This document shows positions 5,666-20,140 of a stretch of DNA of 33,795 nucleotides, one piece after another (the stretch's first letter is position 1; every line of letters starts with the position of its first letter). The position numbers were made by a program, and so were the translations under genes. The notes under the pieces are model-generated. The model was not told the DNA's origin. It saw nothing but the letters and a program-made list of their open reading frames with translations, and made no database searches. Location of the stretch: the NCBI GenBank assembly GCA_030016635.1, contig JASEJQ010000024.1:1-33795 (forward strand), given 5' to 3'. Source of the DNA: Thermoanaerobacteraceae bacterium (lineage in GTDB: Bacteria > Bacillota > Thermoanaerobacteria > Thermoanaerobacterales > UBA4877).

Positions 5666-7009
5666 GTGGAAAATGCAAGAGAAGCGGCATTAAACATTAT
5701 TAGTGATGTATTAAAATCAAGTGGTTACCAGTCCTTTGACCCTAATAAAGAACTTAATATTAATTTATCTGACAAAAGAGACAGGAGACTGGCTCTGGAA
5801 ATAGCATATGGGGTAATTGAAAGAAAAAATACACTTGATTATATTCTGAAACAATATATCTCAAGACCAATAAACAAAGTGGATATTGTTGTGCTTAATA
5901 TATTGAGAATGGGGCTCTATCAGCTTATTTATCTTGACCGTATTCCACCATCGGCAGCGGTAAATGAGTCTGTAAATATGGCTAAAAAATATAGCAATGC
6001 CGGTTCAGCTAAAATGGTTAATGCCGTATTGAGAAACTTCCTTCGCAATGATGGTTTTTATAAACTTCCACCACAAGATGATAAGGTAAAGTATCTTTCT
6101 ATAGTTTATTCACATCCTGAATGGCTGGTAAAAAAGTGGCTTGATGAATTTGGATTGGAATTTACAGTTGGCCTTCTGGAAGCTGATAACAAAAGGCTCC
6201 CTCTTACTGTTCAGACGAATGTATTGAAAATGGAGCCTAAGTTTCTTATAAGCAAGTTGAAAAATGAAGGAATTGATGCAGAAGGAGGCAACTATCTTGA
6301 GGAAGCTATAATAATAGAGAACTTTAGTAGACTTGAAAACCTTCAATCCTATAAAGAAGGACTGTTTTACATCCAGGATGAGGCATCAATGCTTGTGCCT
6401 CATATTCTGGATCCCAGAGAAGGTGAATTCATAATTGACGTCTGCAGCGCACCTGGAGGGAAAGCCACTCATATAGCTGAAATTATGAGAAATAAAGGCA
6501 ATATTCTGGCAATGGATGTTTATGCTCATAAGCTTGATATTGTAAGAGAAAATGCAAACAGACTTGGAATTGATATTATAAATACACAGCTTTTTGATGC
6601 AACTGAGATTGACAATAGTTTAATAAGCAAAGCTGACAGAGTATTGGTGGATGCTCCTTGCTCTGGTCTGGGTACTATACGACATCGACCCGACATGAGA
6701 TGGAATAAACGAATGGATGACATTAGAAAAATATCGGGCTTACAGAAAATTATTTTATTAAATGCATCTAAATATGTAAAAAAGGGAGGTATATTGATAT
6801 ACAGTACCTGTACTATTGAAAAAGAAGAAAATATAGATGTCATAAATGAATTCTTAAGAGAAAATAATGACTTTGAACTTATGGATTTTAATGACTTGCT
6901 GCCACCCAATCTTGTACTGAGGAATTCAGGTATGGGTTACATAACCATATATCCCTCTCTTAATCTGACCGATGGATTTTTTATTGCAAAGATGTACAGA
7001 AAAGGTTAA
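5666..7009 (+). CDS. rsmB: 16S rRNA (cytosine-967-C5)-methyltransferase RsmB
   Basis: RsmB methylates C967 of 16S rRNA using SAM. The 447-residue protein has an N-terminal NusB-like RNA-binding domain (about 1-140, with ILRMGLYQLIYLDRIPPSAAVNESVNMAK) and a C-terminal RsmB/Nop2 methyltransferase domain. Visible motifs are the SAM-binding DVCSAPGGKATH, then DAPCSGLGTIRHRPDMRW and YSTCTIEKEEN, whose two cysteines are the release and catalytic nucleophile residues of the family. The start is GTG at 5666, 8 nt after GGAGG; no better start is near. Confidence 0.96.
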   Translation: MENAREAALNIISDVLKSSGYQSFDPNKELNINLSDKRDRRLALEIAYGVIERKNTLDYILKQYISRPINKVDIVVLNILRMGLYQLIYLDRIPPSAAVNESVNMAKKYSNAGSAKMVNAVLRNFLRNDGFYKLPPQDDKVKYLSIVYSHPEWLVKKWLDEFGLEFTVGLLEADNKRLPLTVQTNVLKMEPKFLISKLKNEGIDAEGGNYLEEAIIIENFSRLENLQSYKEGLFYIQDEASMLVPHILDPREGEFIIDVCSAPGGKATHIAEIMRNKGNILAMDVYAHKLDIVRENANRLGIDIINTQLFDATEIDNSLISKADRVLVDAPCSGLGTIRHRPDMRWNKRMDDIRKISGLQKIILLNASKYVKKGGILIYSTCTIEKEENIDVINEFLRENNDFELMDFNDLLPPNLVLRNSGMGYITIYPSLNLTDGFFIAKMYRKG

Positions 7010-7035
7010 ACTGGTATATGAATTGTACGAACATA

Positions 7036-7044
7036 TGATATAAT
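7036..7044 (+). promoter_or_regulatory. Possible extended -10 promoter before rlmN
   Basis: The 54 nt gap between rsmB and rlmN contains TGATATAAT, a TGn extension followed by a perfect TATAAT. No good -35 box is present, which extended -10 promoters can tolerate. The expected start of RNA would lie about 13 nt before the rlmN ATG, leaving room only for the weak GGTGAT ribosome site. It could be an internal promoter in the long operon or chance. Confidence 0.33.
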
Positions 7045-7063
7045 TAAAGAAAACGGTGATAAA

Positions 7064-8095
7064 ATGGAAAAGAAGAATATAAAGGATTATACGCAGAATG
7101 AATTAAAGGAAATAATAGCTGATTTAGATGAACCGGGATATAGAGCAGGACAGATATTTGGCTGGTTATATAAAGATGCAGATGATTTTGAAGCTATGAC
7201 CAATTTATCCAAGGAATTAAGGACAAAACTGAATGAAAGATTTTATATTTTTAAATCTAACATCATAGATGAAAAAAACTTAACGGACTCTACCAAGTTT
7301 TTGATTACTTTAGAAGATAACAACCTGATCGAGACCGTATTACTTAGATATAAGTATGGTTATACTTTGTGTGTGTCCAGCCAGGTGGGGTGCAAAATGG
7401 GTTGCGGATTCTGCGCTTCAACGATTAATGGATTTGTGAGAGACTTAAAGCCTGGAGAAATGGTTGAGCAGATTATGCTGGTAGAGAGACATAAAAATAT
7501 ACGTGTATCAAGAGTTGTAATTATGGGGAGTGGTGAACCGCTGGATAATTATGATAATGTCATGCGCTTTATAAGGATCATTAACGATAAAAATGGGATA
7601 AATATAGGTGCAAGACATATAACTATATCAACATGCGGCATAGTACCTGGGATTTATAAGCTGGCTGACGAAAAGCTGCAGCTTACTCTTGCGGTATCAC
7701 TTCATGCCGCAATGGATGAAAAACGTCTTGCTATAATGCCGGTGAATAGGGCATATCCCATAAAGGATATTATTTCTGCAGTTAAATACTATACAGAACG
7801 TACTAATCGAAGGGCTACATTTGAGTATTCTATGATAAGGGGATTTAATGATACTGATGAAGATGCAGAAAAACTTGCTTTGTTGATAAGGGGGATTCTT
7901 TGTAATGTGAATCTTATACCGATTAATAGCGTAGAAGAGACAGGATTTTTGCCTTCAGTTTCTGAAAGAGTAATGAAATTTAAGGACAAATTAGAGGAAT
8001 TTGGTATTAATGTTACTATAAGAAGGTCACTGGGTGAGGAAATTGATGCCGCATGTGGTCAGTTAAGAAGAAGTTATTTAGAGAAACAGGAGTGA
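7064..8095 (+). CDS. rlmN: Dual-specificity 23S rRNA/tRNA adenosine-C2 methyltransferase RlmN
   Basis: RlmN is a radical-SAM enzyme that methylates C2 of A2503 in 23S rRNA and A37 in some tRNAs. It has 343 residues. The 4Fe-4S cysteines are C110, C114 and C117 in VGCKMGCGFCAST, and the second conserved Cys used in the methyl-transfer mechanism is C331 in DAACGQLR. The GEPLDNYDNV segment is the GEP-type SAM-binding motif of the family. It is followed by the phosphatase-kinase pair, the same order as in Bacillus subtilis. The stop lies 5 nt before the phosphatase ATG. Confidence 0.96.
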   Translation: MEKKNIKDYTQNELKEIIADLDEPGYRAGQIFGWLYKDADDFEAMTNLSKELRTKLNERFYIFKSNIIDEKNLTDSTKFLITLEDNNLIETVLLRYKYGYTLCVSSQVGCKMGCGFCASTINGFVRDLKPGEMVEQIMLVERHKNIRVSRVVIMGSGEPLDNYDNVMRFIRIINDKNGINIGARHITISTCGIVPGIYKLADEKLQLTLAVSLHAAMDEKRLAIMPVNRAYPIKDIISAVKYYTERTNRRATFEYSMIRGFNDTDEDAEKLALLIRGILCNVNLIPINSVEETGFLPSVSERVMKFKDKLEEFGINVTIRRSLGEEIDAACGQLRRSYLEKQE

Positions 8096-10724: not shown

Positions 10725-11597
10725 ATGGCAGAAGGTAAAATAGTAAAGGCTATAGCTGGTTATTATTATATATTGGCTGAAGGAAAGATATATGAGTGTA
10801 GGGCCAGGGGTCTTTTTAAATTAAAAGGGAAGCCCCCCCTGGTAGGAGATAATGTGATTTTTAAAATAATAGATGATAAAAGTGGCTATATAATAGAATT
10901 GCTGGACAGAAAGAATCAAATAAAAAGACCGACTGTAGCCAATGTAGACCTAGTGTGCTTGGTCGTGTCCGCAAGGATGCCTGAACCCAATTTTATATTT
11001 ATTGATAGGGTTTTAGCTATGTGTGAACACGAGAGTATAGACAGCATAATATGTGTGAGTAAGATTGACCTTGATAGAGAACATGAATATGAAAAATGGA
11101 CAAAAATATATTCAAATATTGGATATAAAGTCTTTTATACAAGTGCAAAATTAAATACTGGCATCGATGAATTAAAGGAATTTTTATTGAATAAAACAAT
11201 GGTATTAGCGGGAAATTCAGGGGTAGGCAAATCTTCTCTTGCGAATGCAATAAAACCGGGGTTGACATTGAAGGTAGGAGATGTCAGTTCTAAATTAAAA
11301 AAAGGCATTCATACTACCAGACATATTGAGTTGATAGAAATATTGCCTGATAGCTTTATTTTAGATACTCCGGGTTTTAATGAATTGTCATTGAACTTTA
11401 TAAATAAATATGATTTTCCATCCTGTTTCAAGGAGTTTAACAGTTATAAGTGTCGCTTTTCAAACTGTTTGCATGAAAGTGAACCAGATTGTGGTGTAAA
11501 ATATGCGGTTAATGCAGGTGAAATAAGTATGTCTCGCTACTTTAATTATTTAAAACTCTTGAATGAGATCGTTGAAGTGGAAAGGGAGGTAGATTAA
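10725..11597 (+). CDS. rsgA: Ribosome small-subunit GTPase RsgA
   Basis: RsgA is a circularly permuted GTPase that checks late maturation of the 30S subunit. In the 290 residues an OB-fold (about 1-65) precedes the permuted G domain, in which G4 (SKID, 112-115) comes before G1 (GNSGVGKSS, 163-171) and G3 (DTPG, 214-217). The C-terminal zinc ligands are Cys243, Cys248, His250 and Cys256. G4 reads SKID where NKxD is most common. The ATG follows TAGGAGG. Its 3' end contains the ribosome site of rpe, and its stop lies just before the inferred rpe start. Confidence 0.96.
   Translation: MAEGKIVKAIAGYYYILAEGKIYECRARGLFKLKGKPPLVGDNVIFKIIDDKSGYIIELLDRKNQIKRPTVANVDLVCLVVSARMPEPNFIFIDRVLAMCEHESIDSIICVSKIDLDREHEYEKWTKIYSNIGYKVFYTSAKLNTGIDELKEFLLNKTMVLAGNSGVGKSSLANAIKPGLTLKVGDVSSKLKKGIHTTRHIELIEILPDSFILDTPGFNELSLNFINKYDFPSCFKEFNSYKCRFSNCLHESEPDCGVKYAVNAGEISMSRYFNYLKLLNEIVEVEREVD
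11584..11589 (+). promoter_or_regulatory. Ribosome binding site that fixes the rpe start
   Basis: GGGAGG sits inside the last codons of rsgA. Its spacing to ATA at 11599 is 9 nt, which is ideal, while ATT at 11593 would be only 3 nt away. No ATG, GTG or TTG lies within reach in the rpe frame. Confidence 0.7.
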
Positions 11598-11598
11598 A

Positions 11599-12246
11599 AT
11601 AGCGATATTATCACCTTCAATATTATCGGCAGATTTTTTAAATCTTGGCGAGAATATAAAAGAATTGGAAGAAGCTGGGATAGAAATATTGCATATAGAT
11701 ATTATGGATGGCCATTTTGTCCCTAATCTTACCTTTGGGCCCGGTATGGTAGAATATATAAGACGTTGTACTGAACTTAAGTTGGACGTCCATCTAATGA
11801 TGACAAATCCTCAAGAGTTTATTGATGAATTTTGTGATGCGGGAGCTGATTATATTACCATACATCAGGAGGCATGTGTGCATCTTAACAGGATTATAAA
11901 TTCGATTAAAAAAAGGTCAGTAAAGGCAGGAGTGGCCTTGAATCCTGCTACACCTCCCTCTACCCTTCAATATGTACTTGATGATGTGGACATGGTGCTG
12001 GTAATGTCAGTCAACCCTGGATTTGGAGGGCAAAAATTTATAGATAGGATGCAACTCAAGGTAGCTGAACTGAATAGGTTAAGAAAAAACGGTTATAGTT
12101 ATAAAATTGAAGTAGATGGCGGTATTAATTTTGATAATGTTAAAGAATTAAAGGATGCTGGTGCTGACATTATTGTGGCTGGCACTTCGGTGTTTAAAGG
12201 TAATATTGCTGAAAATTGTAAACGTTTTGAGGAGCTAATAAAATGA
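11599..12246 (+). CDS. rpe: Ribulose-phosphate 3-epimerase, with a non-standard start codon
   Basis: Rpe interconverts ribulose-5-phosphate and xylulose-5-phosphate in the pentose phosphate pathway. The TIM-barrel motifs are all present: SPSILSADF at the N terminus, HIDIMDGHFVPNLTFGP, DVHLMMTNP, VNPGFGGQKFI and EVDGGIN. The frame that encodes SPSILSADF has no ATG, GTG or TTG before it. The best initiation site is ATA at 11599, which gives a 215-residue protein of normal length and lies 9 nt after GGGAGG. ATT at 11593 is the alternative. The first standard start in frame, TTG 11665, would remove the substrate-binding SILSADF strand and is unlikely to make a working enzyme. A G-to-A change of an original ATG, real or a sequence error, would explain it. 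The gene overlaps thiN by 4 nt. Confidence 0.88.
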   Translation: MAILSPSILSADFLNLGENIKELEEAGIEILHIDIMDGHFVPNLTFGPGMVEYIRRCTELKLDVHLMMTNPQEFIDEFCDAGADYITIHQEACVHLNRIINSIKKRSVKAGVALNPATPPSTLQYVLDDVDMVLVMSVNPGFGGQKFIDRMQLKVAELNRLRKNGYSYKIEVDGGINFDNVKELKDAGADIIVAGTSVFKGNIAENCKRFEELIK

Positions 12247-17241: not shown

Positions 17242-17685
17242 ATGGAAGTACTTGAACTACTGCAAAAAATGGAGGATCTATTAAATAAGTCTGTTAGTAT
17301 TCCAATATCAGGTAAAATACTTGTAGACAGGGATGTACTGCTGAAAATAATTCAGGATTTAAGGCTTTGCCTTCCGGATGACCTGAAACGTGCCGAATGG
17401 ATACAAAATCATAAACAGGAGATATTATTGGAAGCACAACAGCAATCAGATGTAATTATTTCAGAAGCAGAAAAGAAAATAAAGCTTATGGTAGATGATG
17501 AAGAAATTGTAAAAATGGCTAAAGCTGAGGCAGAGGAAATTATTGCCTCAGCTCAAAAAAATGCAAAGGAGATACGTCTTGGTTCTAAGGAATATGCTGA
17601 TTCTATATTGGAGAAACTGGAAAATGATTTGACTGATATTGTAAATACATTAAGGGAAAACCGTAATGAGCTTAAGAAAATTTAA
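17242..17685 (+). CDS. Coiled-coil protein of unknown function after coaD
   Basis: This 147-residue protein has no catalytic motif I can see. Residues about 60-120 form an Ala/Glu/Lys-rich helix (EILLEAQQQSDVIISEAEKK, AEAEEIIASAQKNAKEI) like the stalk of ATP-synthase b subunits or DivIVA-like proteins, and a second helix runs to the C terminus. Genes like this occur after coaD in thermophilic Clostridia, usually labelled vaguely as ATPase or hypothetical; there is no Walker motif to support ATPase activity. The start is ATG 17242, after AGGGGGAAG. Its stop overlaps the stop of the facing ylbJ by 3 nt. Confidence 0.8.
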   Translation: MEVLELLQKMEDLLNKSVSIPISGKILVDRDVLLKIIQDLRLCLPDDLKRAEWIQNHKQEILLEAQQQSDVIISEAEKKIKLMVDDEEIVKMAKAEAEEIIASAQKNAKEIRLGSKEYADSILEKLENDLTDIVNTLRENRNELKKI

Positions 17686-18863
17686 GACCGATTTTTAAAG
17701 GCCAGGCCATTTACTATCGCAATTAATGATACTATTGATATAACCATTATAATCATAAATAATGAAAACCATAGATTAAATAACCAATTATCAGCTATAT
17801 TGAATGTTTCTATAGCATCAGATTTGATTATTATAGGATATGCCAAAAAAATATATATAGGTGTCAATATACTGTGGACTATTTTAGCCAAAAAATATGA
17901 TAAATAACTTATATCCGTTTTTTCTAAGACACTTATTACCTGAGTATGGGTCGATAAGCCTCCCCACGATAATATAAATCCTGCTAACATTGTTTTTTGA
18001 TACAGAGATATCGGTAATTCCTTTAATGAATTACATCCAACAGTCATTTCGAAAATGCCATTAATTATACCTGCAGCCATTTCTTTTGAGATATAACCAC
18101 CTGATAGAATATTGAATATATCAGCAATAAACGAAGTAAACCCTGTTATATTAAGCAGCTTGACAATAACAGAAAAGGTAATTATATATCCTCCAATCAT
18201 TAACATGAGCTTAACTCCATCTCTAATCGAATCGGAAAAAAGATAATTGAAATTCCTTCCGTCTTTTTTTTGTGCCATTTTCATATTATAAACAGCTTTT
18301 TTAAACAAATTAGTTTCCCTGAAGTTAATATTATTTTTGCCTTCAGCTTTACCGTATCTTCTAAATATAAGACCTGTGGTTATTAGTCCAGCATAATTAC
18401 AAAGTAGTAGTAGGTATCCAACTTCAGGGCTATTAAATAAGTCAGTACCGACAACCCCAAGGATAAATAACGGTCCTGCGCTATTGCAAAATGACATGAG
18501 TCTTTCTGCCTCATATTTCGTGCATGAATTTAAATTCCTTAATGATGATATCAATCTGGCACCCATAGGTTAACCGGAGGTTATCCCATTGGAAAAACAC
18601 AACGCACCTTCTCCTGGTACATTCATAATGGGCCGCATAAGAGGTTCAAACAATGTACCTATAAAGTTTACAGCGCCGAGCCCTAATAAAAGCTGGCTTA
18701 TAACAAAAAACGGAAATAAAGAAGGAAATACATTGTTTATCCATAACAGTAATCCTTTTCTTGACGCTTCAAGTATTTCCTCGGGAAATAAAATAATAAA
18801 AACCAGTAGCAAACCGATAATAGCAGGCAGAAAGAAATCTTGCGAAATTTTTTTGATATTCAT
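17682..18863 (-). pseudogene. ylbJ: YlbJ, spore cortex membrane protein, interrupted by one in-frame TAA
   Basis: YlbJ is a polytopic membrane protein needed for spore cortex formation in Bacillus subtilis. On the - strand the frame opens at ATG 18863, gives 97 residues ending NGITSG, meets TAA (18572-18570), then continues in the same frame for Pro and 294 further residues starting MGARLISSLRN. The family sequence at this point is SGYPVGAKL, so a single base has turned a Tyr codon (TAT or TAC) into TAA. The combined length of about 393 residues is that of intact YlbJ, no other damage is seen, and hydrophobic segments continue on both sides. The downstream part has an ATG one codon after the stop but no ribosome site, so only weak reinitiation is likely. 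The cause could be recent inactivation, read-through or a sequence error. It lies downstream of tmcAL, as in Bacillus where ylbJ and ylbM are close. Confidence 0.88.
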
Positions 18864-18916
18864 TTATAATCACCCATAATATGTGTATATGCTCATGAAT
18901 GTGATTATTACAAAAA

Positions 18917-20140
18917 TTATTTGCCAATAATTACAGGACTTTTAATAAAATCTTTACTGAGCATTATATTGCCCAATGAACTAAGGATAGAATAGATGTC
19001 TGTTGAGAGAATATCCTTATCAAGCATTTTTCTGGCTGTATCATTCAAGTCTCTATACTGCTTTCCGAGATTTGTAATTACAGGGATACAGCATTTTTCA
19101 TTTATGCTACTTAATAATTTCCTTCCTGTACTATCAAAACCCAGTACCCTTGCATATAAAGGGCCGGTTTCATTAAAAATACCTGCCTCTTTTTTTGTAT
19201 ATCTAATAATCGTATGAAAAAGTATTCTGGAAAGCCGGCTATATGCATATCTTTTGGTTTTAATTTTTAATAGAAGATCTTCTAAAGAGTATGATTTATA
19301 AACCATTTCTTTAATTCTTCGATGTAATCCTTCTGATACGTCAAAAATTTCCTCAATATTGTCATTTTTAACTAGCTCATAATATAAAATATTTTCCATA
19401 TCCTTTGTAAATATAGGTTTTTTCCCACATAAAACTGCCTTTTCTATCACTTCGAAAGAACCAAACGGCAGATGCTTCTTGACCCTGTTTAAATCACCGT
19501 CATTTAAAACTTTTCTGATAGATGTTGCGCTGGAAATAAAAAGTGTCTCATTTAATTTCTGCTGATAATATTCTGAGCCAATTCTTTTTATGGTGATCGG
19601 TATAATATTGCTATTCAGGCGTATCAACCACTTTAAATATTCAACACCAAGTATGTTATTAGGAGATATAATAAGATTTCCGTTTAGATTGAGTTCATTT
19701 AACGCCATCTGACGTGCTCTGGCAAAAGAAAAGCCATCCTTTAGAAACTTTTTAAGATATATTTTAAAATATTTATCCTCATTGGCCAGTATCCTGGAAA
19801 TCATAAGCAGTTCATCTATATTACCTGCTTCACTTCCAAAAGAAAGATAATTCACTATACCAAGACGCTCTAAGAGGCTGACAGCACCAAAAGCAAAAAG
19901 TTCCGCACTGGATGTGCTATAGCAAACTGGGAGCTCTATAACTAAGTTTATTCCACTTTTTATAGCGGCCTCAGTTCGTGTCCATTTATCAAATAATGCA
20001 GGTTCTCCTCTCTGGGTAAAATTGCCACTCATCACAGCTACAGTTGCATCTGCTTTTGTTATTTCCAAAGATTTTTGTAAATGGTATAAATGGCCATTAT
20101 GAAAAGGGTTATATTCGGAAATAATAGCTAATACGACCAT
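18917..20140 (-). CDS. tmcAL: tRNA(Met) cytidine acetate ligase TmcAL (YlbM family)
   Basis: TmcAL makes N4-acetylcytidine at the wobble base of elongator tRNA(Met) from acetate and ATP. The 407 residues begin MVVLAIISEYNPFHNGHLYH, with the nucleotidyl-transferase motif NPFHNGH (11-17), followed by AVMSGNFTQRGEPALFDKW and INLVIELP. Length and motifs fit the family throughout. AAAGGAGAAAG precedes the ATG on the - strand. Its substrate acetate is also the product of the divergent pta-ackA pair, an association that may be chance. Confidence 0.93.
   Translation of the reverse strand: MVVLAIISEYNPFHNGHLYHLQKSLEITKADATVAVMSGNFTQRGEPALFDKWTRTEAAIKSGINLVIELPVCYSTSSAELFAFGAVSLLERLGIVNYLSFGSEAGNIDELLMISRILANEDKYFKIYLKKFLKDGFSFARARQMALNELNLNGNLIISPNNILGVEYLKWLIRLNSNIIPITIKRIGSEYYQQKLNETLFISSATSIRKVLNDGDLNRVKKHLPFGSFEVIEKAVLCGKKPIFTKDMENILYYELVKNDNIEEIFDVSEGLHRRIKEMVYKSYSLEDLLLKIKTKRYAYSRLSRILFHTIIRYTKKEAGIFNETGPLYARVLGFDSTGRKLLSSINEKCCIPVITNLGKQYRDLNDTARKMLDKDILSTDIYSILSSLGNIMLSKDFIKSPVIIGK

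Follow-up and report, generated by a model that had tools for sequence, protein, structure and literature searches.

A single in-frame TAA interrupts the only ylbJ (spoVV) gene found in a Thermoanaerobacteraceae draft genome

An in-frame TAA in ylbJ

The window analysed here, 33,795 nucleotides in length, is the entire contig C31 of a 2.35 Mb, 114-contig genome of a Thermoanaerobacteraceae bacterium. Its ylbJ (spoVV) gene lies on the minus strand (Table 1), and the sole interruption of the 393-codon frame (18863..17682) is a TAA at 18572..18570, codon 98. A preliminary description of this DNA had reported two same-frame minus-strand pieces split by one TAA, and its coordinates were right: GGT (18575-18573), TAA (18572-18570), CCT (18569-18567) and ATG (18566-18564) follow one another in a single frame, in the context TCC GGT TAA CCT ATG GGT. 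The start codon and ribosome-binding site of the gene are retained in comparison with G001, a member of the same family but another genus and the closest relative found (hereafter the sister). The gene order recG-rsmD-coaD-divIVA-like-ylbJ-tmcAL-pta-ack is common to the window and the sister, in which the tmcAL-like neighbour has the same position relative to ylbJ.

Table 1. Features of the ylbJ locus, in window coordinates
Feature	Position	Strand	Remarks
ylbJ (spoVV)	17682..18863	-	393 codons plus stop, broken at codon 98; TIGR02871 317 bits
In-frame TAA	18570..18572	-	Stands for Tyr/Phe of the SG[YF]P motif; Bacillus SpoVV N97 column
Upstream ORF, 97 aa	18570..18863	-	N-terminal TM segments and first half of the substrate hairpin (hairpin from a low-confidence model)
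Downstream ORF, 294 aa	17682..18566	-	Starts at the ATG 3 nt past the stop; remainder of YlbJ
ATG past the stop	18564..18566	-	Internal Met codon, present too in the sister (SGYPMGAK); no Shine-Dalgarno upstream
GGGTGATT	18868..18875	-	Likely ribosome-binding site of ylbJ, by sequence; sister has AGGTGATT
Upstream neighbour, intact	18917..20140	-	PRK13670 nucleotidyltransferase family, tmcAL-like; NF010191 415.6 bits vs cut-off 360

Read through the stop, ylbJ scores 317 bits over positions 7-361 of the YlbJ profile TIGR02871 ('stops inside: 1 TAA'), above a curated cut-off of 304.65 bits that neither piece reaches by itself. The upstream piece matches positions 7-89 and the downstream piece 91-361, so that exactly one profile position is missing. 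The Gate domain PF07670 is also found (41.9 bits, above cut-off), and the TAA falls within it. Total length had been described as that of a full YlbJ, and the 393 codons are indeed comparable to relatives of the same order, whose open frames span 387-410 aa. At the level of sequence, a full-length TIGR02871 match across a lone stop, with the rest of the 393-codon frame alignable, is more than chance; with the TAA at codon 98 in place of one uninterrupted ORF, the gene is a disrupted member of the family. A TIGR02871 profile search of the assembly (2.35 Mb, 114 contigs), a check proposed in the preliminary description, returned no second ylbJ, and other Gate proteins were rejected as spare copies, being separate genes with intact frames.

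YlbJ had been introduced as a protein needed for the spore cortex. The sporulation role stands, but a plain cortex function describes the protein less well than its present identification as SpoVV, which transports dipicolinic acid (DPA) at the outer forespore membrane (PMC5629000). In B. subtilis, where SpoVV expression in the mother cell is SigE-dependent and the protein functions in DPA transport, five residues form a putative substrate pocket (G96, N97, F141, F302 and Q310); the sporulation defect is strong in G96A and milder in N97A (PMC5629000). Bacillus velezensis YlbJ carries all five residues. In pairwise alignment G97 of the window protein pairs with G96 and the stop with N97; among the pocket columns Gly and Gln are retained, Trp stands for Phe302, and the N97 column is occupied by the stop. 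Judged from this alignment, the break at codon 98 removes the predicted DPA pocket. A weak model of the read-through protein (only three input sequences, mean pLDDT 47.7) shows a helix interrupted at residues 97-99, and the first seven matches of this weak model in a PDB fold search were all concentrative nucleoside transporters (CNTnw/vcCNT, elevator fold), at E-values of 0.006-0.06 and TM-scores of 0.3-0.4. The likeness agrees with the published SpoVV result (PMC5629000), although the substrates differ, DPA being proposed for SpoVV. A PDB sequence search gave no match.

The window gene and B. subtilis YlbJ/SpoVV have in common family (TIGR02871, PF07670), length, the G96/N97 pocket motif region and the distal Q310, as well as synteny beside coaD and rsmD, seen on the Bacillus side in B. 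velezensis. They differ in that codon 98 of the window gene is TAA and the protein is in two parts. The B. velezensis record pDMB05-1, typed as a plasmid, is 807 kb long, carries ylbJ, coaD and rsmD, and looks like a chromosome piece.

Codon 98 in relatives and tests for decay

Matches to ylbJ were present in 58 of the 61 genomes searched. The comparison with related genomes called for earlier placed Tyr at codon 98 in most aligned intact relatives and Phe in the remaining minority, while Bacillus has Asn; the proposal that the stop replaces the Tyr of an SGYPVGAKL-type motif is thereby upheld. The sister gene, 66% identical over 389 aa, is intact and has a Tyr codon at the stop position. The search for relatives returned no further genome of the same genus; a contig scan for related sequences yielded distant Bacilli MAGs only, and a viral-contig pattern scan found nothing.

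Inactivation of ylbJ was also seen in other genomes. In the closed genome of a class relative, G036, a frameshift and a TAA disrupt the gene (about 7000-8000 of the examined stretch). The same gene is inactivated, but its two lesions indicate an older decay, whereas the window ylbJ has one stop. Within the class-level set of 37 genomes G034 gave no ylbJ match, and the copy in G023 (contamination 6%) contains multiple stops. Stops reported in the g7 genomes were discounted, as the profile match apparently runs past the true ends of these genes (G031 has no stop inside).

Several comparisons bear on the age of the stop. Ka/Ks against the sister is 0.10 for ylbJ, 0.113 for the neighbour tmcAL and 0.097 for recG, values meaningful only as a between-gene comparison since synonymous sites are saturated. 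By half, Ka/Ks is 0.16 upstream and 0.07 downstream of the stop, consistent with purifying selection in both parts; most of this signal is older than the stop and is silent on the present state of the gene. Of 57 sites that the other homologues conserve, 9 deviate in the window gene and 9 in the sister, 7 being common to both. Relative-rate counts (own/sister) with four outgroups were 19/23, 19/19, 35/23 and 19/30, which gives no consistent acceleration, and at outgroup-invariant sites own-only changes numbered 4 and sister-only changes 7. In the ylbJ tree the window's own branch is 1.5 times as long as the sister's (0.356 vs 0.235), a difference unsupported by the other counts. A long-standing pseudogene is rejected by the conserved-site, relative-rate and own-only/sister-only counts. 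The earlier remark that nothing else is decayed agrees with these counts and with Ka/Ks: no accumulated decay beyond the stop appeared in the tests, as in an ordinary recent nonsense pseudogene. Because nothing but the stop marks decay, the stop is either very young or not real.

Sporulation genes in the genome

The bacterium is probably a spore-former. Open frames for both DPA synthase subunits, dpaA and dpaB, lie on contig C18 (dpaA scores below its curated cut-off, and dpaB is named by position and sequence), and the SpoIIE, SpoVAD and SigK frames are intact. Contig C71 ends just before the output domain of Spo0A, which truncates the gene, and the search did not locate the receiver part. 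The preliminary description held that the neighbouring sporulation genes look intact. This applies to the set tested across the genome, with the exception of the truncated Spo0A, but the window itself adds only spoVS, the one other recognised sporulation gene there. The gene ylbJ is reported from all spore-forming Firmicutes examined (PMC3533761), and its loss in B. subtilis lowers DPA and reduces heat-resistant spores more than a million-fold (PMC5629000).

In a separate observation, the glycine reductase cluster on contig C22 (12161-18562 of the examined stretch) carries a TGA within the grdB frame (15313), and its grdA seems to be interrupted. Since these are typical selenocysteine sites, the organism probably makes selenoproteins.

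Possible origins of the stop

A very recent change, suppression and error had been offered as explanations for the stop. These are the right options, and the tests favour a very recent change or an error; suppression is unlikely. The most likely of them, by a moderate margin, is a one-base nonsense mutation that arose very recently in the strain's only ylbJ/spoVV. This reading is favoured because the single ylbJ has one TAA where the aligned intact relatives, the sister included, have Tyr or Phe; because the stop occupies the N97 column beside G96, where B. subtilis mutants impair sporulation; because ylbJ is otherwise free of decay in the comparisons above; because ylbJ decay has precedent in the lesions of G036 and the missing match in G034; because non-sporulation is explicable by point mutations in single essential genes (PMC3533761); and because the sampled ABC, receiver and Gate domains contain no other in-frame nonsense codon. 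Under a recent mutation, the protein would be cut short at residue 97, where the helical hairpin predicted to line the substrate pocket has its tip, and the mother cell would be left without a working DPA transporter. Judging from B. subtilis, it might then form few heat-resistant spores, or DPA-poor ones. A parallel is found in Spo0A-positive non-sporulating clostridia with few recent mutations (PMC3533761), in which an essential sporulation gene is likewise disabled and the other tested ones kept; in the window strain, by contrast, both the nonsense base and any sporulation defect are presumed. The kind of event is ordinary, requires no new mechanism and is informative mainly on the strain itself. 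A real TAA would make the strain a naturally occurring spoVV nonsense mutant that retains an intact DPA synthase, and so a useful subject for learning whether a clostridial-type spore former makes stable spores without the outer-membrane DPA transporter.

Against a recent mutation stands its dependence on one base of one 114-contig draft, and a sequencing or consensus error, the cell itself having Tyr at codon 98 and SpoVV intact, is a substantial though less probable explanation. By our own estimate, an error rate of 1e-5 per base would produce about one false nonsense codon in a genome of this size, which makes error a serious rival. Also in its favour are the lack of decay in ylbJ apart from one base, the retention of both ylbJ and DPA synthase, and the state of the draft, in which genes are broken at contig ends (Spo0A, tRNA-Tyr) and several expected tRNAs were not found. 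A second single-base oddity, the ATA start of rpe 7 kb away, likewise counts for error and against mutation. On the other side, there is no homopolymer at the stop and the frame is kept, which excludes a typical indel artefact. At 1411 conserved (invariant) sites, own-only changes numbered 50 and sister-only changes 49, so the contig is not grossly error-rich, gross error being all that these counts exclude. A survey of 53 ABC domains, 20 receiver domains and 7 further Gate domains turned up no in-frame nonsense codon, and with the 73 ABC and receiver domains free of stops, genome-wide nonsense or gross error is rejected. A codon-usage scan of 0.32-0.34 Mb picked up the grdB TGA, a few weak pairs attributable to chance and otherwise gene junctions that were essentially normal and had start signals; it missed ylbJ itself, and at such low sensitivity carries no weight. 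An erroneous base would instead make the case a cautionary one, showing how a strain may look non-sporulating on account of a single letter.

The rpe gene (ribulose-phosphate 3-epimerase; 11593-12246, plus strand) has ATA at 11599-11601 where the sister has ATG, preceded by GGGAGG at 11584-11589; an annotation that begins at TTG 11665 would drop the N-terminal end. The ATA is a rare start codon, a mutation or a base error.

It is improbable that the gene is split and still expressed, with termination at the TAA, reinitiation at the ATG, and 97-aa and 294-aa pieces forming a working or weak transporter. The stop-to-start distance of +3 nt, a start within a few nucleotides of the stop, falls in the coupling range (PMC10666635), the break sits in a predicted hairpin turn (low-confidence model), and both halves show purifying selection. 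That selection mostly predates the stop, however, and in a synthetic operon cited in PMC10666635 a +3 nt spacing cut coupling about tenfold. As stated earlier, the ATG one codon past the stop has no ribosome-binding site; it is an ancestral internal Met codon, as in the sister, and did not evolve as a start, so neither start nor ribosome site is evolved or conserved as such. One pocket residue would be lost and the two products divided inside the binding hairpin, and the local RNA fold is ordinary (z = 0.06). Less probable still is a naturally split SpoVV that functions as two pieces, produced through termination and reinitiation within the DPA-binding hairpin.

Least probable of all is full-length protein made through a suppressor tRNA or programmed read-through of the TAA: the conservation on both sides of the stop and the incomplete tRNA set would allow it, but the 41 tRNAs include none with an anticodon for TAA, TAG or TGA, a partial 42nd at the start of contig C58 was identified by inspection as tRNA-Tyr (anticodon GTA), no Rfam match or special RNA fold was found, and TAA ends 14 of the window's 29 genes, more than any other stop, so that a suppressor tRNA or reassigned TAA is rejected among the tRNAs found. 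The tRNAs not found in the assembly are tRNA-His, Lys(TTT), Thr(TGT) and Leu(TAG); because several tRNA clusters lie at contig ends, the assembly probably misses some tRNA loci.
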